Source: Salibacter halophilus
GTDB taxonomy: Bacteria; Bacteroidota; Bacteroidia; Flavobacteriales_G; Salibacteraceae
Reading direction: 5' to 3'
Length of the DNA stretch: 64,000 nt
Assembly: GCF_008806325.1 (NCBI RefSeq)
Contig: NZ_WACR01000010.1
Location: forward strand, 1 to 64,000
The first letter of the stretch is position 1, and every line of letters begins with the position of its first letter. A model generated the notes under the pieces. The model searched no databases and was not told the origin of the DNA. It saw only the letters and a program-made list of their open reading frames with translations. Shown in pieces: positions 36,670-58,029 of this stretch. Position numbers and translations under genes: made by a program.

Positions 36670-37587
36670 TTAGAATCGAGTTCTGCCAGGTCCTTTTGAC
36701 TTCATTTTGTAACTTAATGTTAAAAAGCCAAACATATAAGTATCTAACCTGTCAGGATTTCCTCTTGTACCGTACTGTTCGCGGGTTAATCCTGATGGTG
36801 GGTTGCTACTCAATCTTTTATCTGCCATATCAACGGCTTCTTGGCCATATTCTGCAGCTAGTACATCTGGATTGTAATATTTTCCGCTCACATCATCGAG
36901 GTAATCAGTTGTTGTCATGCGCAAACCGTACTCGAGACCGATTGACCACTGACGATCGATTGCATATTTAAACCCAAAACCGATTGGGAATGCAATTGAT
37001 ACTTGTGAGTAATCATCTGGTCCGCCCGGTAGGCCTTGACCTTCAGTGTTCAATGGAGCAAGTTTCACCCATTCGTTGTCAGCGTTCTGACCCTGAGGAT
37101 CAAAATAGAATGCTCCAATTCCACCGAATAAATATCCTGAGAAGCTCTCGAGAGTTTGACCTCTCAATCCAGGTAAGCGATAAACAGGACCAACTTTTTC
37201 CTTGATGAAGTAATATTCACCCTGAACAGAAAGTTCAATCACATCTGAACGGAAGTTTAGGTTTCTGTTTTCACGCCCCGGGTTTCCTGCGTATTCATCA
37301 GATCCGTAAATTCTGCCGTAAGCGAGGTTTCCTTTGAAAGCAACACGCTCAAGAGCTCTGTACTTGTAGGAACCTTTCACCGAAGGCCTGGATACAACAA
37401 ACTGGAAATCGCCAAAGCGCGTACCGTCTCCGGTAGTGGCTCCACCCAGGTCACCGAGATAGTTTGACGCTCCAACGCCAAGACTGAACTCATGCCTGTA
37501 ACGCTTCCAGCGCTGACCATAAGAATTTAAAACTGTACCAAATAATAAGAATAGAAGGAAGGCCTGAAGAATGTTTCTAGCCTTCAT
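36670..37587 (-). CDS. DUF6089 outer-membrane protein, copy 2
   Basis: 305 residues: signal peptide (ILQAFLLFLLFGTVLNSYGQ), then RWKRYRHEFSLGVGASNYLGDLGG, VAFKGNLAYGRIYGSDEYAGN, the YFDPQGQN strand and TTTDYLDDVSGKYY. Very similar in layout to copy 1 (GxxxYLGDLGG / GCLTDLGGG; NLNFRSDVIEL / NLNFRSNILEL). Predicted outer-membrane beta-barrel, unknown cargo. A full promoter lies upstream. Confidence 0.87.
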   Translation of the reverse strand: MKARNILQAFLLFLLFGTVLNSYGQRWKRYRHEFSLGVGASNYLGDLGGATTGDGTRFGDFQFVVSRPSVKGSYKYRALERVAFKGNLAYGRIYGSDEYAGNPGRENRNLNFRSDVIELSVQGEYYFIKEKVGPVYRLPGLRGQTLESFSGYLFGGIGAFYFDPQGQNADNEWVKLAPLNTEGQGLPGGPDDYSQVSIAFPIGFGFKYAIDRQWSIGLEYGLRMTTTDYLDDVSGKYYNPDVLAAEYGQEAVDMADKRLSSNPPSGLTREQYGTRGNPDRLDTYMFGFLTLSYKMKSKGPGRTRF

Positions 37588-37629
37588 AATAATGGTTGTT
37601 TGTAAAAGAGTTTAAAAGGTAAGGTGCTA

Positions 37630-37662
37630 CAAATATAGAGTTATTATTTGTAAATCAGCAAA
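37630..37662 (-). promoter_or_regulatory. Promoter of DUF6089 copy 2
   Basis: On the minus strand TTTG (37662-37659), a 21-nt spacer and TATATTTG (37637-37630): an exact consensus promoter with a leader of about 35-40 nt. Confidence 0.78.
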
Positions 37663-37678
37663 TTTTATTTGAAATGAA

Positions 37679-38599
37679 TTAGAATTTGGGTCTTTTTTTC
37701 CGTTTAAAAATATTGAGTTGTAGTTTTTGATCTTTAGCTAATTTATAATTAAACGTGAAAAAGCCTGCAAAATAAAGGTCGTTTCTATCGGGGTTGCCTC
37801 GAATACCTCCGCTATTTCCCCTCCTGTCACTCAACCTTCTATCGGCCAAGCGGGCAGATTGAGCCCCAACTTCACTTCTCAATTCACTTTGGTCGTAATA
37901 TGTGGTACTCACATCATCGAGATAATCAGTAGTGGTGAACCGCACACCAGTTTCAAATCCAATACTCATTTGTCTGTTGATTAGGTATTTAAAACCCACT
38001 CCAAATGGGAAAGATACCGCTATGCTACCGTATTCTGATGCACCACCTTCTAATCCCTGACCTTCCGTTTTGAGTGGACGGAGGTCAACCCAACTACCAT
38101 TTATTTGTCCCTGTGGATTGTAATAGAATGGAGCGATTCCACCAAAAAGGTAAAGCGAATAATCAAATCTTTTGTCATCTCTGTATGTTACCCCGGGACC
38201 GTTATATCTACCGAGTGGTTCTTCGACAATATAGTATTCAAATTGTGCTTTGAGCTCCAGGATATTTGAACGAAAATTGAGGTTTCTGTTTCTGCGACCT
38301 TCATTTCCTGAAAATTCATCACTTCCGGTAACATGTAGAAAAGAAAAGGTTGTTTTGAAAGCCGTTCGGTCGCTGGTTCTAAGTCTGTAACCGACCTGAG
38401 CTGAATAGCGAATAGTTTGAAAGTCAATATCTTTCACGTAGCCGCCATCTCCTGTTCCGCCACCGAGGTCGGTGAGGCAACCGGCATATCCGGCTCCTGC
38501 TATAAACTCATTTTTGTAATAGCGCCATGAATTTTGCGCACAAAGGTTTACAGCCAGGAACGCGAATACCATAAGGGATATGAGGTACTTTTGGTTCAC
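37679..38599 (-). CDS. DUF6089 outer-membrane protein, copy 1
   Basis: 306 residues. Signal peptide (LISLMVFAFLAVNLCAQ), NSWRYYKNEFIAGAGYAG, YRLRTSDRTAFKTTFSFLHV, YYNPQGQINGSWVDLRPLK and TTTDYLDDVSTTYY. The end is Lys/Arg-rich (KRKKRPKF). First of the three tandem paralogues; separated from copy 2 by 91 nt carrying copy 2's promoter. Role unknown; location next to bamA and nadK is typical of Flavobacteriales. Confidence 0.87.
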   Translation of the reverse strand: MNQKYLISLMVFAFLAVNLCAQNSWRYYKNEFIAGAGYAGCLTDLGGGTGDGGYVKDIDFQTIRYSAQVGYRLRTSDRTAFKTTFSFLHVTGSDEFSGNEGRRNRNLNFRSNILELKAQFEYYIVEEPLGRYNGPGVTYRDDKRFDYSLYLFGGIAPFYYNPQGQINGSWVDLRPLKTEGQGLEGGASEYGSIAVSFPFGVGFKYLINRQMSIGFETGVRFTTTDYLDDVSTTYYDQSELRSEVGAQSARLADRRLSDRRGNSGGIRGNPDRNDLYFAGFFTFNYKLAKDQKLQLNIFKRKKRPKF

Positions 38600-42391: not shown

Positions 42392-43156
42392 ATGGAATTG
42401 AATTTTAAAAAGTACGGAGACTCAGGAGAACCACTTATCATCATTCACGGATTATTGGGAATGTTGGATAACTGGTCTAGTCATGCTCGTTTTTTTAAAG
42501 ATCAGGGTTACAGAGTCTATTTAGTTGATGCTCGTAATCATGGCCGCTCTCCGTGGAGTGACGAAATGAATTACGAGGTGATGATGGAAGATCTCAAAGA
42601 GTTTTTAGATAGCCAGAGTATCAATGAGGCGCATTTACTTGGCCACTCAATGGGCGGAAAAATTGTGATGAAATTCGCACAGAATTATGCTTACCGCGTG
42701 AAGAAACTCATTGTGGCTGATATTTCCCCCATGTCTTATCCGGTTCACCACGAACTTATTCTTAAAAGTTTGCGCAACGTTCCGCTCGATAAAATTGAAA
42801 AACGGACAGAAGCTGATGAATTTTTAGCAGAGTACATCAAGGTAGTTGGTATTCGTCAATTCCTGATGAAAAGTCTTCACAGAAAGAAAGACAAAACATT
42901 TGGCTGGCGATTCAATGTTGATGCTATTGAAGCCAACATCGAAAGAATGGGCGATGCCGTGATGGATTCACGCTATCAGGGAAAAACGCTTTTCATTCGC
43001 GGTGGAGCGTCAGATTACATCAAGGATAATCAACTTGACGAACTCAAAGTTAGCTTTCCCAATAGTGAAATTAAAACCATTGAAAAAGCCGGACACTGGC
43101 TTCACGCTGAAGAACCGAAAGTCTTTGACGAATATGTAATCAATTTTCTCGGTTAA
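42392..43156 (+). CDS. Alpha/beta hydrolase (YbfF-like esterase)
   Basis: 254 residues. Oxyanion segment IHGLLGMLDNWSSHA, DARNHGRSPWS, the nucleophile elbow LLGHSMGGKIVMKF (Ser), acidic residue in the late strand and catalytic His in KAGHWLHAEEP. The pattern matches YbfF/ABHD11-type esterases acting on short acyl esters; true substrate unknown. Co-directional with pdxJ. Its last 4 nt overlap the convergent lipoprotein gene. Confidence 0.9.
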   Translation: MELNFKKYGDSGEPLIIIHGLLGMLDNWSSHARFFKDQGYRVYLVDARNHGRSPWSDEMNYEVMMEDLKEFLDSQSINEAHLLGHSMGGKIVMKFAQNYAYRVKKLIVADISPMSYPVHHELILKSLRNVPLDKIEKRTEADEFLAEYIKVVGIRQFLMKSLHRKKDKTFGWRFNVDAIEANIERMGDAVMDSRYQGKTLFIRGGASDYIKDNQLDELKVSFPNSEIKTIEKAGHWLHAEEPKVFDEYVINFLG

Positions 43157-44340
43157 TCGAAATCGAGTGTCAGCTTGAAACGGAGAACGCGTCCGTTGTC
43201 GGCATCAGCTACGTAGAGGATCTCGTCAGCATATGCGACTCCCATCGGGTTGTTGAATTCAGTTGGAGCATTTCCTGTTCCGCCAAAGGATGTTTTGATG
43301 TACTTTGTTTCATTTGAACCCGGAGGTGGGCGAACACCTTCATATCCTTCGCGCGTAAATTGATAAAGCGAATCGGTTCCGGCATCCGTCACGAATATGA
43401 AGTTGGAACCGTCACCTGTAGTTGTAACATCAGTAGGATCGATAAACTTGTCCACATCAGTTATGAAACTATTTGCTTTTGATGTATCACGCGATGTTGA
43501 AGCCGGAGTGTAACTAATTCCGTTTGCACTTTCATTGTAGCGAATAAAGCGAAATTTCACACTTTCATTAGGGTCTGCAAGTGTTACCATGAAGTCACGA
43601 CTGGCAGTAGCTTCAATTTGCGGTGGACGAACCAGTGAAGTAACGCTTGAAGGTTGTTTGAAGTAATTCCTGAAAAGTCCCTGAGAAGTAGTGACGTTGA
43701 TCGGAGTTACAAATTCATCATCTTCATTGAAGCGCAAAACAGCATCATCAGGAGGGAGGATGGATGACTCGTTGTTGTTTTTTGGGCCGGTACGCGTAAC
43801 GTAAAATTCGTTTACATCAGCGATCGCAATTCCGGTAAACTTCACATCAATCGCATCACTTTTTGAAAAGACAGACTTGTAGTAGAACGGATGTACGATT
43901 TTGTTGGTGATCTGACCAAACTGCAAGCCGTAGTTCCCGGCTCCTCCCAGTTCAATTCGATATATACAAGGCAAAGTGTAAGTGGAATCCTGAATCGTTG
44001 TATCTGTTTTTCCAAGTGCCAGCAGGTTGAGTCTGCGGTCTTGAACAACCTCAGTCACACCGGGAACAGATAGCCTGCTCAACTCACGCCCCGAGTAGTC
44101 GAATGAAATAATTTCTTCACTTCCTTCATCCACAACATACATCAGTTGATCGAAACCTGCTACGATATCAACTGGTTTAACAAAATTGGTCAGAGCCGGC
44201 TGAATGGGAACATAAGCAGCCTGGCGAGCATCGAACTCGGGCGGTTCAATGAAATCGAGATCGGTTTTATCACCAAAATAATCACTGCACGAAACGAGCA
44301 GAAATACAGATGCTATATAAAGTGCAATCTTTTTCATCAT
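43153..44340 (-). CDS. Beta-propeller (NHL-like) lipoprotein
   Basis: 395 residues. Lipobox in ALYIASVFLLVSC. Repeated strands suit a six-bladed propeller: VDIVAGFDQLMYVVDEGSEE, FIFVTDAGTDSLYQF and the last blade GVAYADEILYVADADNGRVL. Probably faces the periplasm or cell surface. ATG 44340 overlaps the PorV-like gene's TGA. Last gene of the surface locus; likely an accessory of the transporter/nuclease set. Word at 44188. Confidence 0.82.
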   Translation of the reverse strand: MMKKIALYIASVFLLVSCSDYFGDKTDLDFIEPPEFDARQAAYVPIQPALTNFVKPVDIVAGFDQLMYVVDEGSEEIISFDYSGRELSRLSVPGVTEVVQDRRLNLLALGKTDTTIQDSTYTLPCIYRIELGGAGNYGLQFGQITNKIVHPFYYKSVFSKSDAIDVKFTGIAIADVNEFYVTRTGPKNNNESSILPPDDAVLRFNEDDEFVTPINVTTSQGLFRNYFKQPSSVTSLVRPPQIEATASRDFMVTLADPNESVKFRFIRYNESANGISYTPASTSRDTSKANSFITDVDKFIDPTDVTTTGDGSNFIFVTDAGTDSLYQFTREGYEGVRPPPGSNETKYIKTSFGGTGNAPTEFNNPMGVAYADEILYVADADNGRVLRFKLTLDFD

Positions 44341-45341
44341 CAATTTCTTTCCATTTTATTGATCGACAAACCAAAGCTCACAGCATGTTGTACGCCAAGA
44401 TAATTGGTCGGGTTTACTGCGTAGTTGATTTGCATCGGGTGAGCACCTATGCTGTGACGTATCCCAATTCCAAAAGTCGGGAAGCGCTGACCAAGCACAT
44501 TGAACTTGTATCCGGCTCTCACCTGTAAAAGATCTAAATACTGGTATTCAGCTCCAATTCGGTAGTTTTCAGCGTTGTCATTTGGGTGGTTCAATTCAAA
44601 TGTTGTGAGTAGCGCGTGATTACCAACTTCAACCGGCTTCATGGAAACGCCTAATTTGAACACGTTCGGAACCGTGTAATTGTCGAGGCTCATGCCTGAT
44701 CTATTGAAATCAACTTCTCGTTCATCTCCACTGAGTGATGAACTTCCACTGAAGTTTTGCATCATCACGGCAAATGATAAATCTTTAAAATCGGTGTTGT
44801 ATTTGAAGCCCACATCAACTGCCGCAGTGTGATTGTAATATTCTGCTAGTTGCTCGTAGATGTACTTCATGGTTACACCAAAAGAAAACTGATCACTGAG
44901 AATTTTGCTGTATGTCAATCCGGCTGCTAAATTGTTAGCGTAGGTTTTTTGTCCGGTTCCCATCGGTTGAAATTCCGTTCTCACTTCCATCGCTCCTGAG
45001 TTGAGCGTGTTGACCGTAATGCCAAATGAAGATGCGCTTTTTGTCGGGATAATGGCTGTTACCAATCCCTGGTTAGCTCCGGCTCCAACGAAGTAGTTGG
45101 AAACGCCAAATGAGAGATCTTTCACTTCTGATACTGAAGCGGGGTTTGTGTAAACCGACATGATGTCTCCCGGCAATGCAACAGAAGCTCCGCCCATTGC
45201 AACAGATCGTGGATTCATATCATTTTTCAAAAAGCTCAGTGTTGAGAGGCCGGCTCTTTGCCCACCAAAGTTGGGTAGGATCTGACCGAAAGCCTGAGCT
45301 GAAATAATGATCAATGCGATATGTACTATAAATTTCTTCAT
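44340..45341 (-). CDS. PorV/PorQ-family outer-membrane protein
   Basis: 333 residues with signal peptide (FIVHIALIIISAQAFGQ) and a FadL-like 14-strand barrel: NPRSVAMGGASVALPGDIMS, VYTNPASVSEVKDLSFGVS and IGAHPMQINYAVNPTNYLG. PorV shuttles T9SS cargo from the translocon; this member lies in a T9SS-cargo/TonB locus and may do the same for the local proteins. It abuts the TonB receptor upstream (1 shared nt) and the propeller lipoprotein downstream. Word GGATCTGACC at 45278. Confidence 0.85.
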   Translation of the reverse strand: MKKFIVHIALIIISAQAFGQILPNFGGQRAGLSTLSFLKNDMNPRSVAMGGASVALPGDIMSVYTNPASVSEVKDLSFGVSNYFVGAGANQGLVTAIIPTKSASSFGITVNTLNSGAMEVRTEFQPMGTGQKTYANNLAAGLTYSKILSDQFSFGVTMKYIYEQLAEYYNHTAAVDVGFKYNTDFKDLSFAVMMQNFSGSSSLSGDEREVDFNRSGMSLDNYTVPNVFKLGVSMKPVEVGNHALLTTFELNHPNDNAENYRIGAEYQYLDLLQVRAGYKFNVLGQRFPTFGIGIRHSIGAHPMQINYAVNPTNYLGVQHAVSFGLSINKMERN

Positions 45342-48232
45342 TAGAATTTAAAGCTTATGCCGTACAACAATTGACGCGGAGGTAGGTAACGTGCGGGATT
45401 ATTGGGTAGAGCTCCAGTTTCCTGCGGACCTAAGTAACGCGGATCACGGTAGCTGTTTGTTACAGGGTCACCCTGCTCATAAGCTGTTCCGGTTACCGGG
45501 TTCACGATTTGAGCTCGTTTGTTATCGAGTGCATTACGCAATTCAATACTGAGTGTAATGCCTGTTTTGCTGTTATCGTTGAAGTAGAAAGTTTTGGAAA
45601 CTTTGATGTCTGTGCTGATCCACGGTGTTCCGATTTCCTGCAGGTAACGGTCGTTATCCGGTGCGTAAATCGGGCGGCCTAGGTCATTTGTTCCCACTTG
45701 TTCAACGGGTGTGTAGCGATAGCCGCTGCGGTAACTCTGCTTGAGGAAAACTCTCCATCCGCCAAGACTGTATCCCCAAAGTTTGAGTGTGCTATCCGGT
45801 GAGAATGTAACTCCTCCGTTGAAGTTCCACGGGCGATCAAATGCGAGGTATTGTTCGCGGGTTAACTCGACTTCACCATTTTGCTCAATTTGAAGTCCGG
45901 CCTCACGAGCAGAGTTCGATTTACCACGAGCAACCTGATAGGTTCCGTTAGCAAATGCTTTGAAATGCTCGCCAATACGGAGGAAAACACCGAGCTCAAC
46001 ACCTTGTATTTTGGCGTAATCCTGGTTGATATACATCTGCTTACTAACCGGGCGACCAGTTTGATCTTCTACCAAAACTCGTCTCGATACGATGTAATCA
46101 AAACGGTTGTTGTTAAATGCTGAAAGCGTGAAAGCTAGATCTTTCGTGAGCTGAGACTTCATCCCAACTTCATAAGAAACGTTCACCTCAGGATTGATAT
46201 TCGGGTTTCCGAGGTTGCTCAGGAATGAGCGGTCCTGGAAGTCAGGGTCTAATCCCTGATAAACAAATCGTGGGTGAGGTAAGCGCATCGAGTGGCTGTA
46301 GTTGAAATAGAGCACGTTGTTTTCTGTAACCGGGAAAGAAACGTTGATACGTGGTAACAATCTCGCTTTCCAGCGTTGACCAAACAAACCAAATGTTTCT
46401 TCTTCATAATTCTGACGAACCTGATCGACAACAGGAGAATTAGGATTCTCTACTGCATCATCAGCGAATTTACCCGGTGCCCAATAATTGAGTCGCATAC
46501 CGAGTGTAGCGATAATTCCTTTGTAAGTGATGACATCCTGAGCGAAGAGACCTCCGTTCATGGCGTTTACACTCCAAATATCGAATGAACTCCCGATACT
46601 TCTGTTAGGTGTTGTTGTGTTCTCATCGATCCTGATTGGAGCTCCAACCCACGGACGCGTAACATCAACCCACTGGTATCCTGTGAACTTGTGTTCGTGG
46701 CCAAATGTGATCTTGTGAATTTTACTGTTCGGGTAAAAACGGAACTTGTATTTGAGTGTGTATTCCTGTGCGTAGTGATCGTGCCATAATGAAGAAATAC
46801 CTCCGTTATTGATCAACCACGGTGATGGAATTGTATAAACGATTTCATCGCCCGGATTGTAGAGTTGAACTGGATCAGTAATAATCGATTGCTCATCGAG
46901 AATTTGATCAACAGTTTCGGTTCTGAATGGGCGACCGTTTGCGTCTGCTCTCAGGTTTGTAAAGAGTCGGCCAACAGAAACGTCAAGGTTCCACTTATCA
47001 TTTAAAAAGTGGTTAAAGTTCAGAGCCGTTAGGTTTGAGTGGTGCGTGTAGGTTGTGGCATTGTCGAGGTTTAAACTTCTGCGGAATTGAAAACCGGGAA
47101 GGAGAATCGCATCAAACCCCACAATTTGAAGTGTTCTTGTATTTTGGTTGATGTTGAGGCTGTGCTGATTGGTGAGTGAAAGTCTCGTCCCTTCTTTTAT
47201 TTGCCACGATAACTTGAGCGTGTGCGACCAGTTGTTGCGTTGACGGGGAGCCCAAAATTTTCCCTGGTTCAAGGGATCAATAACATTATCATTCAGCCAG
47301 TCATTTCCTGATCGATTGTAATTCGTTCTTAGGATACTACTTTCGAGTTGATTGGCAGTCGGCCCAAAGTAGTTGTCACTCATGATCGACTGAATGGCTG
47401 TAAAGAACTTCACCTTCTTTTTTGTTCCGGGAACTGGTCCGCCCATGTTGAGCTCGATGATATCAGTATTCCAGGAGTAAGCATTGTCTTTATCAAAGCC
47501 GAGGTTGTCGCGTTGCCAGCTACCACCAATTTGGAACTTGTCACCACCTTCGCGAATTTTCGTTGAGATAACCCCAGCCGAACTACCGCCAAACTCAGCT
47601 CCCTGGCCACCGGTAATTACTGTTACATCAGCCGCTGCATTTGCTGATACATCTGCACCCGAACCACTACCTGCCAGCGGATCCTGAGCTGAGATTCCAT
47701 CGATCAAATATTCGGTTTCGTAAACACGACCACCTCGGATCTGAATACCATCAGTTGTTGTGTTGACACCGGCCTGCATACTCACAACTTCCTTGACATC
47801 GCGAACGTTCATCTCCTCGATGTCGTCCTGCCCGATGCTCACTTCAGATTTTCCAGATTCGAGGTCAACGAGGTTTGCTTCACCAACAATTGTTACCTCC
47901 TGAAGCGTTTGTGAGCGCGGTTCAAGCGATGCATCCAATTTAGTGGTTTCACCATCTTTAATCGTTATCCCGTTGAAAACCTTAGCCGCAAAACCGATGA
48001 ACGATATCTTGATCGAGTAGTCACCCGGCTTGATATCTTTAATCTCGTATTTGCCGTCAACATCAGCCGATGTCCCTTTATAAGTCCCCACAATTTGCAC
48101 GGTGGCACCAATCAGTGGCTGTCCCGTTTCACTATCTGTGAGGGTTCCTTTTAGTTTTCCCTGAGCTGTTACGGTCAGAACCGAAAGCAACAAGCCGAGG
48201 GTCGCGATGATGTGTTTACCAGTCAAATTCAT
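45341..48232 (-). CDS. TonB-dependent outer-membrane transporter with carboxypeptidase-like N-domain
   Basis: 963 residues: signal peptide (IIATLGLLLSVLTVTAQG), a CarboxypepD_reg-like domain (about 25-110: GTLTDSETGQPLIGATVQIV), plug (about 120-270, with QTLQEVTIVGEANLV and TDGIQIRGGRVYETEYLIDG), and a 22-strand barrel. Imports a large ligand with TonB energy; not a SusC with a neighbouring SusD, so the substrate is not obviously a glycan. Surrounded by a surface nuclease-like set. Overlaps the upstream lipoprotein gene by 17 nt. Word at 48173. Confidence 0.93.
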   Translation of the reverse strand: MNLTGKHIIATLGLLLSVLTVTAQGKLKGTLTDSETGQPLIGATVQIVGTYKGTSADVDGKYEIKDIKPGDYSIKISFIGFAAKVFNGITIKDGETTKLDASLEPRSQTLQEVTIVGEANLVDLESGKSEVSIGQDDIEEMNVRDVKEVVSMQAGVNTTTDGIQIRGGRVYETEYLIDGISAQDPLAGSGSGADVSANAAADVTVITGGQGAEFGGSSAGVISTKIREGGDKFQIGGSWQRDNLGFDKDNAYSWNTDIIELNMGGPVPGTKKKVKFFTAIQSIMSDNYFGPTANQLESSILRTNYNRSGNDWLNDNVIDPLNQGKFWAPRQRNNWSHTLKLSWQIKEGTRLSLTNQHSLNINQNTRTLQIVGFDAILLPGFQFRRSLNLDNATTYTHHSNLTALNFNHFLNDKWNLDVSVGRLFTNLRADANGRPFRTETVDQILDEQSIITDPVQLYNPGDEIVYTIPSPWLINNGGISSLWHDHYAQEYTLKYKFRFYPNSKIHKITFGHEHKFTGYQWVDVTRPWVGAPIRIDENTTTPNRSIGSSFDIWSVNAMNGGLFAQDVITYKGIIATLGMRLNYWAPGKFADDAVENPNSPVVDQVRQNYEEETFGLFGQRWKARLLPRINVSFPVTENNVLYFNYSHSMRLPHPRFVYQGLDPDFQDRSFLSNLGNPNINPEVNVSYEVGMKSQLTKDLAFTLSAFNNNRFDYIVSRRVLVEDQTGRPVSKQMYINQDYAKIQGVELGVFLRIGEHFKAFANGTYQVARGKSNSAREAGLQIEQNGEVELTREQYLAFDRPWNFNGGVTFSPDSTLKLWGYSLGGWRVFLKQSYRSGYRYTPVEQVGTNDLGRPIYAPDNDRYLQEIGTPWISTDIKVSKTFYFNDNSKTGITLSIELRNALDNKRAQIVNPVTGTAYEQGDPVTNSYRDPRYLGPQETGALPNNPARYLPPRQLLYGISFKF

Positions 48233-49652
48233 CATTCAGTATTGTGTCAAATAGGTTTTCCAAATTTTGTTGGTTACCGCTCAACGTGTAGAGTTCAACA
48301 GCGAAAAGTATTTGGTTGACGTTGTTATTTGCGCCTGTTCTTTTTATTCCGATTACGTTGTCGCTCCAATTTTGGTAGTTATTAAAATTGGCGAAGTAAA
48401 ACGGCTCTGCATCGGCAGTGGGAACTACCGGATCCATACTGAATACAACTGATCCTGATTTGAGATTTGGATAGTTGCTGTCATTCGAGTACACGGTACT
48501 GTCTGGATAGAGATCAGCACTTCCCGGACCGGTTGAAAGCTCCTCAAATGGAAGAACTCCGGCAATTGCGCTGAGATCTTGTCCACTGGTGAATGAAGTC
48601 GTGATGAATAGTTTTCCTCCGTCATTCGTAAACTCGAGTAGAGAAGGAGTGGCAAAATTTAAAAGCAGTCCTTCCTGTTGGTTGTTCAGATTAGTGAAAA
48701 TTTGCGAATCCGTATTGAAGAATACCTTATCAAATTGTTGGATAAGCAACTTAAATGTTGGGTTGAAATAACGCGGTAGTCTCGTGTTCTGACTGATATT
48801 GTAAATGTTGTAATTCGGGTAAACATTGTTGAGGATAGAGCGGTATTGATCAGTAACGGTTTCCGGCTGACCGGTAACCATCAATAAATCAGAGTTGATG
48901 TCGCGGAAGAATACTGTATTCGAAGTATCAGGTTCACTTTCCTTTCCTGCAATATCAGCTACTTTGATGTAAAATGTGTTTGAGTCACCGTTGATAAAGC
49001 CATCAATTGTGGCATTTGGTGAATCTTCCTGGCCGATGTAAATATCAGCAGATTGTTGTCCTTGTTGATCAGGTTGGGAGGGAACAACAGAAATGAGGTT
49101 TGTTCCCTGGCTGAAGTCGAGTTCTGACCACGAGCCGTTATTTGCTTTGATATAAGCTTTTTCGAGTGTTTCGAAACCATCCGGGTCTGTTCCTTCCCAA
49201 TCGAAAGAAAGAACAACTAATGTGCTGTCACCTTTGATGGTGCTGTTGTCGATGGTCGCTATTGGAGTACTGTTTTTGATTGGAACCGAAAGTATAGCAG
49301 GACTCTGATCGATATTGTCATCATTGTCGATTGCGCGTACGGCAAATTCTATGTCGGCTGAGTCACTCCCGGCTGGAATGCTGAACTTGAAAGTGCTATC
49401 CTGGGCGTTCGTGTACTGCCATTCGCCATCATCAATTGAAATTTCAAATCCTGTGATGTAGCCATCGGAATCGGTTCCGAACCAACTCAGTCTAACACTG
49501 CTGCTGAGGCGATCATCACCGCTGAGATCAATCGACTCAAAAGCGATTTTTGTCTCGGGATACTTATTTTCATTTCTGTCTCCTGTTTTTTCACAGGAAG
49601 AAAGAAAGGCAAGAACCACGATTGATAGTATTTGAAGATAGACTTTGTTCAT
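48216..49652 (-). CDS. Surface lipoprotein with fibronectin-III-like domains
   Basis: 478 residues. Lipobox in LQILSIVVLAFLSSC. Two Fn3/Ig-like domains (about 35-130 and 130-250: VRLSWFGTDSDGYITGFEIS; LSFDWEGTDPDGFE), then a second half (about 255-478) starting LLMVTGQPETVTDQYRSIL that resembles a glutamine-amidotransferase-like or Rossmann sensor fold; I cannot assign it. Directly precedes and overlaps the TonB receptor gene, so it may be the ligand-binding partner in place of SusD. A terminator separates it from the OB-fold gene upstream. Confidence 0.8.
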   Translation of the reverse strand: MNKVYLQILSIVVLAFLSSCEKTGDRNENKYPETKIAFESIDLSGDDRLSSSVRLSWFGTDSDGYITGFEISIDDGEWQYTNAQDSTFKFSIPAGSDSADIEFAVRAIDNDDNIDQSPAILSVPIKNSTPIATIDNSTIKGDSTLVVLSFDWEGTDPDGFETLEKAYIKANNGSWSELDFSQGTNLISVVPSQPDQQGQQSADIYIGQEDSPNATIDGFINGDSNTFYIKVADIAGKESEPDTSNTVFFRDINSDLLMVTGQPETVTDQYRSILNNVYPNYNIYNISQNTRLPRYFNPTFKLLIQQFDKVFFNTDSQIFTNLNNQQEGLLLNFATPSLLEFTNDGGKLFITTSFTSGQDLSAIAGVLPFEELSTGPGSADLYPDSTVYSNDSNYPNLKSGSVVFSMDPVVPTADAEPFYFANFNNYQNWSDNVIGIKRTGANNNVNQILFAVELYTLSGNQQNLENLFDTILNDEFDW

Positions 49653-49715
49653 CAGCTTAAAATCTATACACGAAACGATCAGTTGATTTGAATGCGTTTC
49701 TTAAAAGGATTAAAA

Positions 49716-49757
49716 GAAAACGTCTGCCATTGATTGACTCAACAGCAGACGTTTTAT
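49716..49757. terminator. Bidirectional-looking hairpin between the lipoprotein and OB-fold genes
   Basis: AAAACGTCTGC and GCAGACGTTTT form a perfect 11-bp stem with a 17-nt loop; on the minus strand the second arm runs into TTTTCTTTT. It lies 10 nt past the stop of the OB-fold gene and splits the surface locus into two transcripts or attenuates it. Confidence 0.8.
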
Positions 49758-49766
49758 AAAATATGG

Positions 49767-52022
49767 TTATTGAATAATGATCTTTTCAGTTTGAACTTTT
49801 ACACCCTCAGTTTTGATAACTGCGAGGTAAACGCCAGCCTGTAGGTTAGCAATGTCAATTTGGTTCTGACCGTTATTCACGCGAACTGTTTTTACATTGC
49901 GACCGCTCAGGTCGTAAAGTTCAACTGTTGTAAGATCCTGAGCACCTTTTACGCGAACGTTCAATCTGTTGCTCGCAGGATTTGGATAAAGAGCCGTTTC
50001 AACAGTGTTTCCGTTGATTACAGCAAGACCAGTTGGTAATTGAGTATCTTCAAGTTGTGCAGAATCCAAAGGAACGCTAAACCCGATAATATCATCGTTG
50101 TTACGTGGAGTGAGCTTATAGTCTTCATATCTCGAAGTCATAACACCGCGAATAGCATCCATTGATTGAGTTGTGTCAGTTAATATGTGATCTACTTCTA
50201 AGATACTTTGTTGAACTGTGTCTTGCGTAACAACAGAAACATAAAGTGATGAGAAGTTTTGTTCTGCTTCAATACCTGACATTACCAGTGAAGACTGATC
50301 ATTTGGAGCTTGATCAATCGAGGATACCATCCATGATCCATAATAATCATAAAAGTCGTCAGTAACATGAATTCTGTTGTTAATAGAACTGTACTCAACC
50401 AACATTCCTTCGTATTTTTCCCAGCCTCTGTTGGCTTTAGATGCTGTGTCAGCTGGATCGAGAACGATTGGTGAAATTGTATCGAGCGTTGTGGAGTCAA
50501 TTGATACAATATCTGAAACATTTAGTTGAGTTACTTCCTGGCCGGTTTCCTGTACAGTTCCGGTTACAGTCACGATATTATGACGTTGGAGTTCTGCCAG
50601 TTGAAGAGCTCCAACAAGCATAATGCCACCAAACTCACTTGCGTTTTGGTCCTGAATATAAACATATCCAAGGTCGTAATCCTTTAAAGAAGCAGTTACG
50701 ACACCTGTTACAGTCACTTCTTCACCTACAAAGCTGGAAGCATCGTTTTGGTTTGGATATGGAATATATTGAAGATCGTAAATTGAAAGTCCATTATCAC
50801 GAACCGTGTAGAATTCAACATTTTGTTGTTGTCCGGCATTTGTGATTGGGAAATAAGACATGTTTCCGTCATTGTCCTCTGCTTCGATGTAATAACCTAC
50901 TGTTGTGCCATCTCCCTGAGCAGGAATAGTAGCTTCATAAGTATCAGCACTTGTATTGCTCATATTTACTGACGTGAAATTAACAGAGCCTGCATTGAGG
51001 TTTGTTGAGTAATAAAGCGTAGTGTTTACAACAGATCCATCAGGGTCAACAATGTCAGCTGAAATTGTTACGTCATCTGAAGAAGTTGGAATGGCTACAT
51101 CTTTCTCAACATTAGTTATAATAGCTGGAGAAATACCACGAACAATGTCGGAATTATAAACTGGTGATATTCTGTAGCCACCTGAAAAGTCTTCTGGTCC
51201 AAAGCATCCATTAGAATTATGGTCAATAATTCCTCTTAACGTATCTAATACCTGGCCAGGTTGGAGAGGTGTAAAAGAACCGTTAGCTACTGGTGAATTT
51301 GGATTGTAAGTGGACCAATTGCTATTTTTCATTCCTAAAAACTTGTCATAGATCCAAATTAGATTTCCACTTTGGTCTTGGACAATATATTGGTTTCTGG
51401 TATCTCCACTTGATGTATATGATTCATCAGTTACAACTGTCAAATTAGTAAGCTCAACATAAGATCCTTCCCATTGCTCTCCAGTTTCAATTTGATTGTT
51501 CCCATTTCCATCCTGAAGATCTGAAAGGTTAATACTAACCGGATTGATTTCGTTTACAGAAATACCAGGAACAACAATATGTGTTTGAGTGTTTGTTAAA
51601 GGATAAATCTGAGTTTCATTGTCGTAAGCATCAACTATGCCGGTAATATAAACAAGTTGATTTGCTGGAATATTATTAAGCGTACTAGCAGTAATAGTAT
51701 TATTATTTTCATCTTCCCAGTAACCATGAATTTGAACGCCATGGAATGGGCCGCCAGCTCCCTGATTCATCGTGTCCACGATGTTTAAAAGTGGACGTTG
51801 GCCTGTTGGAGAGCTGCCAGATGCTAATTCTGAGTATCCACCCGGAGTAACAACATAACCGGCAACGGTTACGGTATCACCGAGGTATGAGCTCGTGTCG
51901 TTGCAGCTTTGTAAGCTGCTCTGGTCAACGTACTGGATGTCGTACACGCTAACCGTGTCAAACTGGGCCTGCGCTGTTGCAAGTCCCAAAAATGCTGCTG
52001 CGCTGAGTAGTAATTGTTTCAT
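49767..52022 (-). CDS. T9SS-secreted protein with two OB-fold (YhcR-like) domains
   Basis: 751 residues from the ATG at 52022. Signal peptide KQLLLSAAAFLGLATAQAQ. Two OB-fold modules of the kind found N-terminal to EEP domains in secreted nucleases: VSVYDIQYVDQSSLQSC with VTVAGYVVTPGG (about 22-300), and LSIYDLQYIPYPNQNDASS with EEVTVTGVVTAS (about 405-640). A Big/Fn3-like domain lies between. The tail (ALYPNPASNRLNVRVKGA to TEKIIIQ) is a type A T9SS sorting signal. It lacks the EEP catalytic domain, which is encoded by the first gene of this locus. Word GGTTCTGACC at 49862. Confidence 0.85.
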   Translation of the reverse strand: MKQLLLSAAAFLGLATAQAQFDTVSVYDIQYVDQSSLQSCNDTSSYLGDTVTVAGYVVTPGGYSELASGSSPTGQRPLLNIVDTMNQGAGGPFHGVQIHGYWEDENNNTITASTLNNIPANQLVYITGIVDAYDNETQIYPLTNTQTHIVVPGISVNEINPVSINLSDLQDGNGNNQIETGEQWEGSYVELTNLTVVTDESYTSSGDTRNQYIVQDQSGNLIWIYDKFLGMKNSNWSTYNPNSPVANGSFTPLQPGQVLDTLRGIIDHNSNGCFGPEDFSGGYRISPVYNSDIVRGISPAIITNVEKDVAIPTSSDDVTISADIVDPDGSVVNTTLYYSTNLNAGSVNFTSVNMSNTSADTYEATIPAQGDGTTVGYYIEAEDNDGNMSYFPITNAGQQQNVEFYTVRDNGLSIYDLQYIPYPNQNDASSFVGEEVTVTGVVTASLKDYDLGYVYIQDQNASEFGGIMLVGALQLAELQRHNIVTVTGTVQETGQEVTQLNVSDIVSIDSTTLDTISPIVLDPADTASKANRGWEKYEGMLVEYSSINNRIHVTDDFYDYYGSWMVSSIDQAPNDQSSLVMSGIEAEQNFSSLYVSVVTQDTVQQSILEVDHILTDTTQSMDAIRGVMTSRYEDYKLTPRNNDDIIGFSVPLDSAQLEDTQLPTGLAVINGNTVETALYPNPASNRLNVRVKGAQDLTTVELYDLSGRNVKTVRVNNGQNQIDIANLQAGVYLAVIKTEGVKVQTEKIIIQ

Positions 52023-52033
52023 ATTTGTTTGCA

Positions 52034-54109
52034 TTATTTAATAACCATGAATTTGCCTTTGTGAATTTTTCCGGTTCCCAAATCTTCAACCGTAAAGAGG
52101 TAGAGTCCTCTCGATATAATTTGGTTGTTTTGGGAGAGTAAATCCCAGGCGTGAATACCACCTGAGAAAACGTTTTCGTCTGGATCTTCAGCTCCAAAAG
52201 TCTGGAACCATCTTATGTCTGATCCATTGTAGTCCTGGTCGTGGCGAATTTCGTCAATCAAATCACCAGCCGGGGTAAATACCCGAATTACACATTCTGC
52301 CGGTAAATTGGCGAAATACATTTTTCTACTTTCTTCCTGGAAGTTACTGGTTCCCTCCCAGGCTGCACCGCTGTAATACGGATTTGGATAAGCAAAAGGC
52401 TCTTCGCTGTCGGGATCATCGTTTACCGGAGTTCCGGTAAATACGCGTTTGAGGTTTGAAGCCGGTGAACTCTCCAGTGACTCCAAATTATTTTCGGGTT
52501 CGCCACGGTCAAATGATGTCACCGCAACTGCGTATTGCCAGCCCGGTTGTACATCATTGATTGTGTACTTGTAGTAATAAGTTTCGCCTTCAAAGGTGTA
52601 AGGCTCTTCAAGCCTAACGCTGTTGAGGCCTATGTCGTAAGCTATCCCGTTATCATCGAGGTCGTACTCGGCAATTTTGAAGAGTTCTTCTTCAAAGTCG
52701 AGATCTGATGTTCCCACAACATCAAAACCGAGTTTAGAAAGGTAAACGCGGTAGCCTTCAAAATCCTGTTCCAATGAAATAGGATCTACTGATGACTCGG
52801 CATTATCACCCCAGTAGAGCTGAATACTATCACCTTCAGCAATGACTTTTGTTTTTGGGATATCGGGTGGAGTAGGAAGGATATAGCGATCGATCTTGTT
52901 ATCACCATCGAGATCTTCATCAGGAGTCAAGATTCCATCTCCGTTTGCGTCTTCACCGAGGTATGCTGTTTGTGCCCAATCTGCATTGCGGTAGAAAATT
53001 TCGCGTTGAGCAAGTGTATTCGCACTGTTCGGATTTCCGTCTTCCTTCTTTTGCCCCATGATGAAAGCAAAAGCTAAGCTGATCGTATCACCGGGCTGGT
53101 AGTTGTAAAAGGGTCCTGCACTCACGAGATCTGAACGGTTACCAGGCTGACTGATGTCGTTTTGGATTTGATCCCAGTTTTGCTCGTAATTGAGTCCACG
53201 TGTCATTTTTTGGAAGCGCGCATTTTCACTTGTAGGGAACGCCAATGTTGCCGATCCCGAGTTGAATTGCCAGGTGTTATAATGAACATTAAAGCCCGGT
53301 GTGTTTTGCGGATTGTAGAATGCCCCGTTGTAATCGGCACCGAGGAATTTTTGACCGATGTAACTTTCCGTGAAACCAACATCACCTGCAACATCCCAGC
53401 AATAAGCCATATTCAGCGAATCGGAGTATCCGTTTCCTCCTTGAGAGTAAAAAGCAGATCCACCTGATCCTGCCGGAGTAACATTCACATTTCGGACAAC
53501 AGTATTTGACCACAGGCCAACGTACATAGAGTCGTAAGTGCGGTTTGAGTAATTTACAATATCGAAACTTACAATCACGAAAAAGTCACTAAAAGCGTAA
53601 TTCCAGTTGTAAGCTTCCATGTGAACACCAATATTCAATGGATCGTTGTGATCTGAAATAGGTGTGTTCGTTCCGGGAACCACAACATTGCTATCGGTGA
53701 AATCTGCGATGAAATCCTGTTGTGAAATAGCATTTGTCGCATAATTAGGACTGTCAAAAAGCGTTGATTTTTCGTTCAGAACCGATCCGACAGGAACTGT
53801 CATCTCAAAGCCTTGTCCGCCTGTAGCATAACCACTTGGCGCATCATAAGCTGCAGTAGAAACCTGATCGGGATTAGCTGCAATCCATATTCCGGATTCG
53901 AAAAGGTGCTCAATTCCTGAGCCTGCAGGGTACTCGCAGGAAGGGGTACCTGAGCCATCGCGATATCCTCTGAAAGCGTTTCCGAATGTTCCTACATTCG
54001 TAACATTTAGCCTCACTCTTGATGAAGAGGTTACCTTTTCGTCAAACGATTGAGACCAGCCGCTAAGCGACAGCCCCAGAATAAAAAATGATACAATTAT
54101 CTTTTTCAT
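52034..54109 (-). CDS. Large secreted protein with Fn3-like module and T9SS/FlgD-Ig-like tail
   Basis: 691 residues. Signal peptide IIVSFFILGLSLSGWSQ. Central part unknown, with a dockerin/EF-hand-like calcium loop DANGDGILTPDEDLDGDNK (about 410-430) and an Fn3-like segment around SIQLYWGDNAESSVDP. The end (FAYPNPYYSGAAWEG, RVFTPAGDLIDEIRHD, GKFMVIK) resembles FlgD-Ig/T9SS sorting tails. The -7 box TAATTTTG ends 7 nt before the ATG, suggesting little or no leader. Probably a secreted or surface scaffold; no catalytic motif seen. Confidence 0.8.
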   Translation of the reverse strand: MKKIIVSFFILGLSLSGWSQSFDEKVTSSSRVRLNVTNVGTFGNAFRGYRDGSGTPSCEYPAGSGIEHLFESGIWIAANPDQVSTAAYDAPSGYATGGQGFEMTVPVGSVLNEKSTLFDSPNYATNAISQQDFIADFTDSNVVVPGTNTPISDHNDPLNIGVHMEAYNWNYAFSDFFVIVSFDIVNYSNRTYDSMYVGLWSNTVVRNVNVTPAGSGGSAFYSQGGNGYSDSLNMAYCWDVAGDVGFTESYIGQKFLGADYNGAFYNPQNTPGFNVHYNTWQFNSGSATLAFPTSENARFQKMTRGLNYEQNWDQIQNDISQPGNRSDLVSAGPFYNYQPGDTISLAFAFIMGQKKEDGNPNSANTLAQREIFYRNADWAQTAYLGEDANGDGILTPDEDLDGDNKIDRYILPTPPDIPKTKVIAEGDSIQLYWGDNAESSVDPISLEQDFEGYRVYLSKLGFDVVGTSDLDFEEELFKIAEYDLDDNGIAYDIGLNSVRLEEPYTFEGETYYYKYTINDVQPGWQYAVAVTSFDRGEPENNLESLESSPASNLKRVFTGTPVNDDPDSEEPFAYPNPYYSGAAWEGTSNFQEESRKMYFANLPAECVIRVFTPAGDLIDEIRHDQDYNGSDIRWFQTFGAEDPDENVFSGGIHAWDLLSQNNQIISRGLYLFTVEDLGTGKIHKGKFMVIK

Positions 54110-54116
54110 TTCGCGG

Positions 54117-54124
54117 CAAAATTA
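54117..54124 (-). promoter_or_regulatory. -7 box directly before the large secreted protein gene
   Basis: Minus strand TAATTTTG with C following, exact box; only 7 nt separate it from the ATG at 54109. Confidence 0.55.
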
Positions 54125-54157
54125 CCTTTGAATATTTCCCTGATTGTTAGGTTAAGA

Positions 54158-55438
54158 TTAAATTATAACTATACGGAAAGGAGTTGATTCCTTTTTGTTG
54201 ATTTTCAATATATAGTTACCTTTTTTAGTTTTTGAGTCGAGCTGAATGTTATTCACTCCGGGAATAATATGAATGTCCTGTATTTTGCGGCCCGTTAAGT
54301 CGTAAAGCGTAGCCGTTGTTTGTCGGTTGTAACTGCTTCTAATGATCAGAGCCTTGTTGCGAACAGGGTTCTGAATTTTAATGAGGTTTTTATTGAACTC
54401 TGGTTCATGAGTAGAACTTGGGTTTCTCGAATATGCTTTGAGATTCACGACAACCGGCAGGTGATCGCTTACGCGGTAAAGTGCGTTTGCCACATTGAGG
54501 CTTACATCAGCATTGCTGGGCGTTACAACATTAGAGTTGAATCGGTTGCCATCCTGCCCGATTACCCGGTAAGAATAGCTATCGTATTCCAGGTAATTTG
54601 AATTATCCATTATCGAGTTGCTGAGCAAGATGAAATCGAAGCGGTCATCCAGTCCGCCACCTGAAAAACACGGATCAGAGCCGGTATGTGTGCTCTGACT
54701 GTGAACGAGCTTGAAGTTGCCACTGCTGCTGTTGTGCCAGGACCCTTCAATTCCCGTTGGGTCATTGAAGTTGTACGAGGCATCGTAGAAATCTGTCAGT
54801 TCCTGATAAGCGGGTTCTGATGCAGCATAAAGATTGAGATCGCCCGCGAGCATAAAGTTTTGAAGATCGTTGTCGCGAACATATTCCATGATGGCTTCAG
54901 CAGCAACGTGACGGTCATCAGGGTTCTGACCACCCTGACCTGCTTTGAAGTGCGCTGCGAATACCGTGAAGTAAGTCGTGTCGGCTCCCGAAGCGAGAGA
55001 AGGGTCTTTGTAGTAAAAGCGGTAAGCATCGATGAGGCGAACGATGTACTCGTTGTTGATGCCGCGCTCAATGCTGTTGTGACCGATGTAACCTATTTTG
55101 TTTTCGTTGAAAAAGCAGTGATTGATGAGGCTTGAGCTGCCTGCATAAGTGGTGTAAGTGTATTTCGTTTCTCCGTCTGTGTTGAGAGAATTATCCAAAA
55201 GATCGAGGATATTCCCCTGACTGTTCCCGATTTCCTGAAATACAACAACATCGGGATTTGCGTATTGAATAACGGTTTTGAGGTTGTCTTCTTTTTGAGC
55301 GGGATCATTGTTGCTGTAATCGCACTGACCTATCGTTGAACGATACAACATGAGGTTGTACGTGAGGACCTTTATGTCCTCCTGGCTGCGAAGTGTTTGA
55401 AGGGATAGCAGCCCGGTAATAAGGAGTATAAAACGCAT
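54158..55438 (-). CDS. Secreted endonuclease/exonuclease/phosphatase (EEP) family protein with T9SS tail
   Basis: 426 residues. Signal peptide (ILLITGLLSLQTLRSQ); EEP domain about 20-335 with the metal and catalytic positions seen as VLTYNLMLYR, VVVFQEIGNS (metal Glu), FAAHFKAG (His), MLAGDLNLY (Asp/Asn), RFDFILLS and VSDHLPVVV (catalytic Asp-His). A degenerate type A T9SS tail follows (IKIQNPVRNKALIIRSS ... FRIVII). EEP proteins cut DNA, RNA or phosphoesters; a nuclease/phosphatase role outside the cell is inferred. First gene of the surface locus; -7 box TACTTTTG upstream. Word GGTTCTGACC at 54922. Confidence 0.9.
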   Translation of the reverse strand: MRFILLITGLLSLQTLRSQEDIKVLTYNLMLYRSTIGQCDYSNNDPAQKEDNLKTVIQYANPDVVVFQEIGNSQGNILDLLDNSLNTDGETKYTYTTYAGSSSLINHCFFNENKIGYIGHNSIERGINNEYIVRLIDAYRFYYKDPSLASGADTTYFTVFAAHFKAGQGGQNPDDRHVAAEAIMEYVRDNDLQNFMLAGDLNLYAASEPAYQELTDFYDASYNFNDPTGIEGSWHNSSSGNFKLVHSQSTHTGSDPCFSGGGLDDRFDFILLSNSIMDNSNYLEYDSYSYRVIGQDGNRFNSNVVTPSNADVSLNVANALYRVSDHLPVVVNLKAYSRNPSSTHEPEFNKNLIKIQNPVRNKALIIRSSYNRQTTATLYDLTGRKIQDIHIIPGVNNIQLDSKTKKGNYILKINKKESTPFRIVII

Positions 55439-55638: not shown

Positions 55639-58029
55639 TTAGTTTATGTATAGGACCTTTTCGTTATCAATCAGTTGATTATTCTTGTCGAATTTTTGGA
55701 TTAGATAAATAGTATTTGCTTCCAATATGTTTTTAATTTCTGGGTTTGTTAAGTTGTTACCAGAATATGCTACTCGGCCTAACATATCAACTATTCTAAT
55801 ATAAGAAACCTCATCTTTATTATGAGGAGGCTGGATTCCCTCAATGCCAGAAGAAGAGGTTGCTTCTCCTTTGCAAGAGGATAAGTTTAATTGAATACTA
55901 TTTTCAAGTTTACATTGAAAGTCTCCATTGTCATCATAGACATTGGTTGTATATGTAGCTGTATAAGAGTCATTAGGCGAGCAGGATCCATTGATGCCTA
56001 TTTCAAATGTCCTAGTACCGTCTTGGTTGTAATTAAAACTTACGATATAAGGTGTTCCCTGTGTCGATCCATTAGGTGTAAAAGAAAGGCCTCCTAGAGT
56101 TGAGTTAACAGTAATGTACCAAGGGCCAGGGCAACAATATGTGAAAGGGTGATCAAACTTAATTGAATTAATAACCTTAACTTTATAAGTAGTAATACAG
56201 CCATCTTGATTTATCGTGTTTATATAATATAAATCAGATAGGTTGCCACTTTGTAGATAAAAGGAGGAAACATCAAATGATTCATTGTCTAAGTATATAT
56301 ATTCTTCAAAGAACTTGCTATAATAGGAGACAGCTAAGATGTCAGAAGAAATAAAATCCGGTGAGAAAGAATCTTCACCACCACACAGGTAATAAGTGTC
56401 GTTTATTTCAATGACTTCATTACAGCAGTTTGTTTCATTCTGAAGACTAGAAGGCCATAGTTCAACTTGTTCTCTCTCTAAATTACTTTCATAAGAATTT
56501 TCGTATTCAAATGATATTGCTGATAGCGTATTAATACCTATAGAAGTGTAATTGTTATTTATCAAGCAGTTTTCTGGATTATAGAGAGATTCTCCTGATC
56601 TTGCCTGGATCTGAATTTCACCATAGTATTGAATTAAATCATTATCTTCATATTTTCCGGTATTAAACGAGTATGTGAGGATATTGTCTTGATTAATTGT
56701 TAAGTCACCAGCTGTTATACTTTCTAATGTGTTTAAGCCAAGGTGAGGGTCTTTTAGCTCAATTGTATTGCATTCACTTTCAATTATTTGTTTAGCTTCA
56801 AACTGAAAGACTTTTTGACCAGTAATCAAGTCTTTAATTTTATACTTTGTTAAAGTAACTTCTTTTAAAAAAGAACCATATAAATATTCTGTTGCTAAGA
56901 CATACAAAAAGTTTTCATGTATTTCAATATCAATTATTTTTCTTTTATTCAAACCATAGTCGGTAGGATAAACGAAGCCAGGACTTACATTTAATTGCAT
57001 AGGGCTTATAACAGCCCTGTTGCCGCCAGAGGTATATGTGTAATCATCTATTATATCAATTCCGATTAACTCTGATGCTTCTGATGCGGATCCGTGAGAA
57101 GTGTAAATGTTGTGATGATTCATTTGAGTGTTAGAAACTATTTCTACCCAGAATCCTTTTCCCTCATCAACCTTATATCCTCCTACACATCCAACAATAG
57201 TGTTTTTATTAAGTTTTGAAACAACATCTATAGCTGTTCCTCCAGCTGTTCTTTCTTGGTTTGTGCCCTTAAGGTAGTGGTTTTCAATTAGCTTAAATTT
57301 GTTGTAGGTGTAGTCCATATTGTAGAGGGAGAGGATGTAAGGGGTTGTATAAGTTACTGCTTGTGCGTAATCATTTGGGGCTTCATCATCATTAATTGAA
57401 AGATAAGAGAAGTGCCCAACAATTTCCCAATGTGAAGAATTTTCATTAAATGATAAATCATAAACTGTAAACCCACATTCTCTTCTTTTTCCGGCTGGAT
57501 CGAATTCATCAGGTGGAGGGATTTGTGAAGAAGATCTAGAGTAACCATATAGTCCAGATTCCTCAAGGAATTCATCACTGGGACATGTGAATGTATAAGA
57601 ATCTAACAAAGTACCATCTGGTGATAGTTTTATGATTTTCGGGAATCCAATATGATGATTATTTGGAAGTTTACACGAAGGATTGGCGCCAACGGCAATT
57701 TCACCAGTTGTTGGATTTTCACCAATTGCTTCATATACAGTGTGGTTGTCGAGTGTGCGAGACCAGATAAGGTCACCGTTCAAATCTATTTTAGCAATTA
57801 CAGAGTACTGGGTGTTTTCCCAATCATCACAAAAAGGAACGAGATCAGCATGTGTTGATAAGGCGATAATATACTCATTTGGATTGAAAGTAGAGCGTAT
57901 GAATTTTCTAACTTTTAAGTCCGAAATTGATGATTTGAACTTTGTCTGATTTGGACTTGTAGCCATTAACTTAAATGGGCTTAATAAGTAAAGCCCTAAT
58001 AATAGTGTAAGATAAATGTTTTTTTTCAT
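55639..58029 (-). CDS. Large AT-rich secreted protein with T9SS sorting tail
   Basis: 796 residues, unrecognised. Signal peptide (NIYLTLLLGLYLLSPFKLMA). The first ~450 residues contain repeated strands of SBBP/kelch-like character (VIAKIDLNGDLIWSRTLDN; PKIIKLSPDGTLLDSYTF) suggesting a propeller; later part has Ig-like strands (FTPNGSTQGTPYIVSFNY). The end, YIRIVDMLGRVAYSGN to EKVLYIN, is a type A T9SS tail. Many stretches are more AT-rich than neighbouring genes (one sampled line has 20% GC) and it contains no copy of the recurrent decamer. Flanked by a palindromic terminator and the longest gene-free gap here. Recent acquisition is possible; fast-evolving surface protein is the alternative. 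Confidence 0.78.
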   Translation of the reverse strand: MKKNIYLTLLLGLYLLSPFKLMATSPNQTKFKSSISDLKVRKFIRSTFNPNEYIIALSTHADLVPFCDDWENTQYSVIAKIDLNGDLIWSRTLDNHTVYEAIGENPTTGEIAVGANPSCKLPNNHHIGFPKIIKLSPDGTLLDSYTFTCPSDEFLEESGLYGYSRSSSQIPPPDEFDPAGKRRECGFTVYDLSFNENSSHWEIVGHFSYLSINDDEAPNDYAQAVTYTTPYILSLYNMDYTYNKFKLIENHYLKGTNQERTAGGTAIDVVSKLNKNTIVGCVGGYKVDEGKGFWVEIVSNTQMNHHNIYTSHGSASEASELIGIDIIDDYTYTSGGNRAVISPMQLNVSPGFVYPTDYGLNKRKIIDIEIHENFLYVLATEYLYGSFLKEVTLTKYKIKDLITGQKVFQFEAKQIIESECNTIELKDPHLGLNTLESITAGDLTINQDNILTYSFNTGKYEDNDLIQYYGEIQIQARSGESLYNPENCLINNNYTSIGINTLSAISFEYENSYESNLEREQVELWPSSLQNETNCCNEVIEINDTYYLCGGEDSFSPDFISSDILAVSYYSKFFEEYIYLDNESFDVSSFYLQSGNLSDLYYINTINQDGCITTYKVKVINSIKFDHPFTYCCPGPWYITVNSTLGGLSFTPNGSTQGTPYIVSFNYNQDGTRTFEIGINGSCSPNDSYTATYTTNVYDDNGDFQCKLENSIQLNLSSCKGEATSSSGIEGIQPPHNKDEVSYIRIVDMLGRVAYSGNNLTNPEIKNILEANTIYLIQKFDKNNQLIDNEKVLYIN

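Follow-up and report, generated by a model that had tools for sequence, protein, structure and literature searches.

Which substrate is served by the surface locus in the window analyzed here, i.e. the first 64,000 nucleotides of a contig of Salibacter halophilus (G000:C10:1-64000; Bacteroidota, genome of 3.12 Mb, 99.97% complete)? Seven genes on the minus strand, running from position 55438 down to 43153, encode in this order an EEP-fold protein, an exported protein termed here P691, an OB-fold protein (OB755), a lipoprotein (LP478), a TonB-dependent transporter (TBDT), a PorV-like barrel and an NHL-like lipoprotein (Table 1). Their coordinates suggest a single transcription unit because the spacing is tight (from EEP to NHL: a 48-bp gap, a 1-bp overlap, a 114-bp gap, and overlaps of 20, 1 and 4 bp). 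A first-pass annotation of this DNA had proposed that the locus may cut and import nucleic acid or phosphate esters. All genes it named are present where it placed them and on the same strand, while P691, which lies between the EEP and OB proteins, was missing from its title and account. We found that the six genes from P691 to NHL form an operon conserved across the phylum, at which unrelated nucleases replace one another, and that its substrate is probably nucleic acid.

A search for P691 in 394 genomes of the phylum (373 of good quality, E <= 1e-20) revealed matches in 114 of them, including 113 of good quality; a few of the matches are partial or weak. Comparison of P691-bearing regions of approximately 20 kb, taken from 103 genomes, together with four named loci, yielded 82 operons complete to the NHL gene. 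The order P691-OB755-LP478-TBDT-PorV-NHL is fixed both in the family of S. halophilus and in distant classes, with the NHL-like lipoprotein keeping the last position, and reduced versions, comprising P691-OB755 alone or with LP478, are present in a few families of Bacteroidia (L060, L070-L072). P691 is the operon's most constant marker; it is single-copy in nearly all tested genomes of the family and retains 42-62% identity across distant relatives. It has no match in Pfam, NCBIfam or PDB, and LP478 likewise has no significant family or PDB match. The end of P691 looks similar by eye to a tail of the type IX secretion system (T9SS) (YPNPYY...GKFMVIK) and is not recognized by the TIGR04183 profile. 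Since its predicted model is poor (mean pLDDT 44), no fold is claimed here. We found no description of the operon in the literature, in a search that covered few subscription journals.

Analysis of the genes bordering the operon reveals that nucleases replace one another there. A nuclease or phosphodiesterase adjoins 53 of the 82 complete operons, and its fold varies among EEP, PLD, endonuclease I and PF01663. In the family of S. halophilus all 24 complete operons have an adjacent secreted nuclease, which is an EEP protein encoded 5' of the operon in 16 cases and an endonuclease I (PF04231, E 2e-31) encoded 3' of it in the remaining 8. In another genome of the same genus (G001) the EEP position 5' of P691 is taken by a T9SS protein combining PLD and DUF5689 domains (L049:13999-16242), therefore the nuclease has changed within one genus. 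In other families NHL is followed by a gene for an EEP protein (L074-L076, L079, L082, L095, L098, L104, L108, L110, L111, L114), a PLD protein (L077, L078, L081, L083-L089, L091, L106) or a PF01663 lipoprotein (L103, L112, L113, L127), and in L097 a PLD gene is placed after PorV. Of the genes adjacent to the operon, 54 of 207 are nucleases, vs 4 of 377 other flanking genes (nominal Fisher p 3e-22). Across at least ten families, no fewer than three unrelated nuclease folds are found at this locus. Because unrelated nucleases swap at the operon, nucleic acid is the best supported substrate, and we regard it as the probable one. Co-occurrence with unrelated substrates, the outcome that the first-pass annotation had named as contrary to its proposal, was not seen beyond occasional ordinary neighbors.

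The individual proteins of the locus agree with the first-pass account of a secreted EEP nuclease, an OB-fold protein, a TonB transporter without SusD and a PorV-family barrel. The EEP protein passes the PF03372 cut-off (24.6 bits vs 24.5) and the cut-off for the T9SS type A tail (TIGR04183, 26.7 bits vs 23). Its catalytic-type residues N28, E69, H163, D200, N202, D325 and H326 are invariant among 19 orthologs; it keeps the residues expected of an active EEP member. It scores far below the cut-off of the ExeM/NucH model (NF033681, 31.4 bits vs 300). OB755 also possesses a T9SS tail (TIGR04183, 53.2 bits vs 23), so that both proteins predicted earlier to be exported by this system pass the same profile. 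Pfam OB families match OB755 from the window only below threshold and are matched by 4 of its 14 orthologs. Plain Foldseek searches with the predicted model (mean pLDDT 68) were swamped by multi-Ig proteins, and the OB folds were resolved with VIA-align. In this model residues 25-165 align to the anticodon-binding OB domain of AspRS (6wom; Z 10.3, rmsd 2.5, 99 aligned residues) and residues 414-522 to the corresponding domain of AsnRS (6pqh; Z 10.0, rmsd 2.4, 89 aligned residues), which together with the ortholog matches bears out the earlier assignment. The Ig-like domain between them resembles that of peptidylarginine deiminase. In one genome an additional, shorter OB755-like gene is located between P691 and OB755 (L046:7604-11066).

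The transporter comprises the regulatory, plug and barrel domains (PF13715, PF07715 and PF00593), remains far below the SusC/RagA model (TIGR04056, 65.9 bits vs a cut-off of 368), and no protein of the operon matches the SusD family. The PorV-like barrel is a member of the PorV/PorQ family (NF033709, 157.3 bits vs a cut-off of 90) and does not reach the model of the T9SS PorV itself (equivalog NF033710, 61.5 bits vs 250).

What the nucleic acid might be handled for is suggested by a second type of locus. In Riemerella anatipestifer, a transposon screen and markerless deletions have shown that natural transformation is abolished by loss of either RA0C_RS04915, an outer-membrane barrel with a carboxypeptidase-regulatory domain, or RA0C_RS04920, a DUF5689 protein, and this pair is unlike known machinery (PMC8459023). 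In the same species tonB mutants show reduced natural transformation (PMC8383284). In the Bacteroidia genomes we found DUF5689/barrel loci, which fit the description of the Riemerella pair. They comprise a barrel of approximately 720-960 amino acids, one or two DUF5689 lipoproteins, genes for EEP (L178, L179, L180, L182, L183, L187) and/or PLD proteins (L180, L185) and, in some cases, an additional T9SS protein (L178, L180, L183). Both types of loci place a barrel with a regulatory domain beside an OB/DUF5689 protein, with EEP in or beside several of them. OB755 is homologous to two of their components. Its N-terminal half matches the DUF5689 lipoproteins (hhalign probability 96.7, E 3.7e-10), and its second half matches the T9SS protein that some of the loci have as a third component (probability 99.7, E 1e-26). 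DUF5689 is also found in one chain with EEP (L133) and with PLD (L049, L106). Moreover, four of the DUF5689 loci share chromosomal neighbors with the operon, namely abhydrolase, PdxJ, Om463 and NAD kinase at L178, UppS and CBS at L181, a DPM1-type glycosyltransferase at L183, and abhydrolase and NAD kinase at L186. At the Pfam threshold no DUF5689 domain (PF18942) is found in the window genome, and none of the 394 phylum genomes combines P691 with a strong DUF5689 match. Among 60 genomes of the class, the 14 with P691 and the 11 with a strong DUF5689 match do not overlap (hypergeometric chance ~0.04, calculated by hand), a pattern that fits weakly with replacement of one system by the other and is confounded with phylogeny.

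From these comparisons we infer a mechanism in which DNA is assigned as the substrate, inward transport as the direction, and a role is assigned to each protein. The machine would bind extracellular nucleic acid, most likely DNA, which a T9SS-exported nuclease held near the surface would cut or trim, and the product would pass through the TBDT. OB755 may bind the DNA via its two OB folds; P691 and LP478 may act as surface adaptors, filling the position that SusD has in other systems; the PorV paralog may help to retain or hand over T9SS-exported proteins, and the NHL-like lipoprotein is a presumed accessory. We slightly favor such an outer-membrane machine importing DNA through the TBDT. That the import serves natural transformation we propose only tentatively. 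Equally tentative is the broader view that the operon encodes the apparatus by which much of the phylum Bacteroidota takes up DNA across the outer membrane for transformation. Such an apparatus would be TonB-powered, T9SS-assembled and built around P691, it would replace the type IV pili and secretin of other Gram-negatives, and the DUF5689/barrel pair of Riemerella would be its counterpart in Flavobacteria.

Several observations weigh against the proposed DNA-import machine. The TBDT is apparently no close relative of the Riemerella-type barrel: a plain hidden Markov model search was negative, and the hhalign probability of 96.8 over 827 columns, obtained without a control TBDT family, may reflect general TBDT kinship. 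The operon adds P691, LP478, PorV and NHL, which have no counterpart in the examined DUF5689 loci. ComEC is near-universal (380 of 394 phylum genomes), hence its co-occurrence with the operon gives no support, and one genome with P691 (G374) shows no ComEC. A secreted nuclease could equally destroy DNA as prepare it. The Fisher p of 3e-22 for the nuclease share among operon-adjacent genes is nominal, since some of these genes went into the profiles for EEP, PLD, endonuclease I and PF01663, and since the sampled genomes are related to one another; the exchange of folds across families is independent of this p-value. Finally, a directly adjacent nuclease is missing from 29 of the 82 complete operons, which belong to many families. 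Among these 29, one has a gene for a protein with EEP, DUF5689 and a T9SS tail directly upstream in divergent orientation (L133), and four carry EEP within the flank (L105, L109, L132, L134); the 3' neighbors are mostly unrelated housekeeping genes. The nucleic-acid role proposed by the first-pass annotation therefore stands in part: it is supported by the exchange of nuclease folds, by the homology of OB755 to DUF5689 proteins and by the DUF5689 fusions, and it is weakened by the nuclease-free operons.

The foremost alternative, a serious rival that we consider less likely, is nutrition: the secreted nuclease would degrade nucleic acid and the TBDT would import oligonucleotides or nucleotides, not long DNA, as a source of phosphate, nitrogen or carbon. 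The combination of a nuclease with a TonB transporter follows the classic logic of substrate utilization, and phosphate-depleted Flavobacterium johnsoniae induces the secreted endonucleases EndA1 and EndA2 (PF04231) together with several TBDTs (PMC8115612). A PF01663 phosphodiesterase/nucleotide pyrophosphatase is encoded 3' of the operon in some relatives, all of them members of another family. The PUS/PHO-regulon loci of Flavobacterium resemble the operon in directing secreted nucleases and TonB transporters to phosphorus-rich polymers; however, the PusCD loci carry SusD homologs and phosphatases or periplasmic phosphodiesterases (PMC8115612), whereas no SusD homolog, phosphatase, nucleotidase or periplasmic phosphodiesterase was matched in the window operon. 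The housekeeping genes at the 3' end of most nuclease-free operons likewise do not point to nutrition, OB755 is akin to a type of locus that is required for transformation (PMC8459023), and the mean column identity of the TBDT across genera (67%) is unusually high for a nutrient transporter, the benchmark being an expectation only. The missing phosphatase, nucleotidase and SusD and the kinship of OB755 lean away from nutrition, and neither is decisive. Between the two functions, the Riemerella data (PMC8459023) tip the balance slightly in favor of transformation.

A second alternative, which we consider quite improbable, is that the operon serves another substrate or builds a surface structure, and that the nuclease is a hitch-hiker which clears extracellular DNA or protects the cell. 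The nuclease-free operons are in agreement with it, as is the fact that P691, LP478 and NHL show no domain specific to nucleic acids; on the other hand, several unrelated nuclease folds replace each other at the operon in at least ten families, and OB755 has two OB folds and is akin to the nuclease-associated DUF5689.

The genome does contain a frequent word of the uptake-like kind suspected from the window by the first-pass annotation. The word GGTCAGANCC occurs in 1482 genome copies (739/743 by strand) vs 4 for the reversed control; its density and its even distribution over the two strands are similar to those of a DNA uptake word. The window contains 36 copies, all within open reading frames (ORFs) and in both orientations. 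The word has 486 and 824 copies in the two other genomes of the genus, and is at or near the background in the other genera of the family that were tested, all of which possess P691. Word discovery across 107 loci (36-142) revealed none that is shared in a comparable way beyond this genus, and a literature search that covered few subscription journals revealed no description of an uptake word in Bacteroidota. Since the word is restricted to one genus and the operon extends across the phylum, a general link between the two was rejected, and the presence of the operon does not suffice for that of the word. The word was also compared with a secretin. The window genome encodes a secretin with pilin-like, GspE-like and GspF-like genes (L175:5384-15880, G000:C13), a cluster of the type II secretion or type IV pilus-like kind that some of the family's genera possess and that was not found in others. 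Tracking of the secretin by the word is unsupported: no secretin was found in either of the two relatives that carry the word, whose genomes are 83% and 94% complete, and eight genera that lack the word possess one. It is very unlikely that the operon is a sequence-specific receptor for GGTCAGANCC: the high copy number, the presence of P691 in all three word-bearing genomes and the lack of correlation with the secretin speak for it, but all other tested genera have the operon and lack the word, and the secretin with its pilin-like and GspE/GspF-like genes could be the uptake route in the window genome. Other locally enriched words are AGACGCCCC/AGACGTGCC in L097 (G328), GCTTGCACC/TGCACCAAG in L038 and AGTGAGGAG in L095, and L118 contains 55 copies of CCTCTGGCG; these may be repeats or further uptake-like words.

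Two further known systems resemble parts of the locus. YhcR-type extracellular nucleases combine EEP and OB-fold domains. The locus shares with them and with ExeM/NucH the association of EEP with OB folds, and in the relative L133 DUF5689 and EEP are found in one chain; in the window, by contrast, the OB and EEP proteins are separate and P691 is encoded between them. SusC/RagA systems likewise comprise surface lipoproteins, a secreted hydrolase and a TonB transporter whose carboxypeptidase-regulatory domain is N-terminal, but the window transporter misses the cut-off of their model, has no SusD, and is accompanied by a hydrolase that is a nuclease. TonB transporter loci that have their own secreted hydrolase are of a known kind, and the operon would be more than such a locus only with proof of DNA uptake.

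Table 1. Genes of the locus (window coordinates; lipobox and Fn3-like assignments were made by eye).
Feature	Position	Strand	Remarks
EEP-fold nuclease/phosphodiesterase, 426 aa, predicted secreted	54158..55438	-	signal peptide, T9SS tail; the gene of the locus that is exchanged
P691, exported 691-aa protein, no recognized fold	52034..54109	-	central marker gene of the operon
OB755, T9SS protein with two OB folds	49767..52034	-	OB 25-165 and 414-522; Ig-like ~301-414; T9SS tail 682-755
LP478, lipoprotein	48216..49652	-	N-terminus LSSC; Fn3-like N-terminal part
TBDT	45341..48235	-	carboxypeptidase-regulatory domain, plug, barrel; no SusD partner
PorV/PorQ-family outer-membrane barrel, operon-specific paralog	44340..45341	-	NF033709
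NHL-like lipoprotein, last gene of the conserved operon	43153..44343	-	LVSC lipobox; weak NHL match (PF01436)

Just upstream of the EEP gene, an exported protein of 796 amino acids is encoded at 55639-58029; it has only a sub-threshold family match, is unmatched in related loci and looks lineage-specific. Elsewhere in the window (36670-38599), two adjacent ORFs with similar N-termini (YRHEFSLGVGASNYLGDLGG and YKNEFIAGAGYAGCLTDLGG) resemble by eye tandem paralogs of an outer-membrane protein.

P691 and LP478 add two conserved proteins without a family description in the libraries searched. If the function of the operon is nutritional, it would represent a SusD-less utilization locus for nucleic acid. 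The passage of DNA across the outer membrane of Bacteroidota is largely unknown, and the operon with its swapping nucleases provides a concrete and widespread candidate; if it does import DNA for transformation, this would be relevant to gene transfer in a major bacterial phylum.

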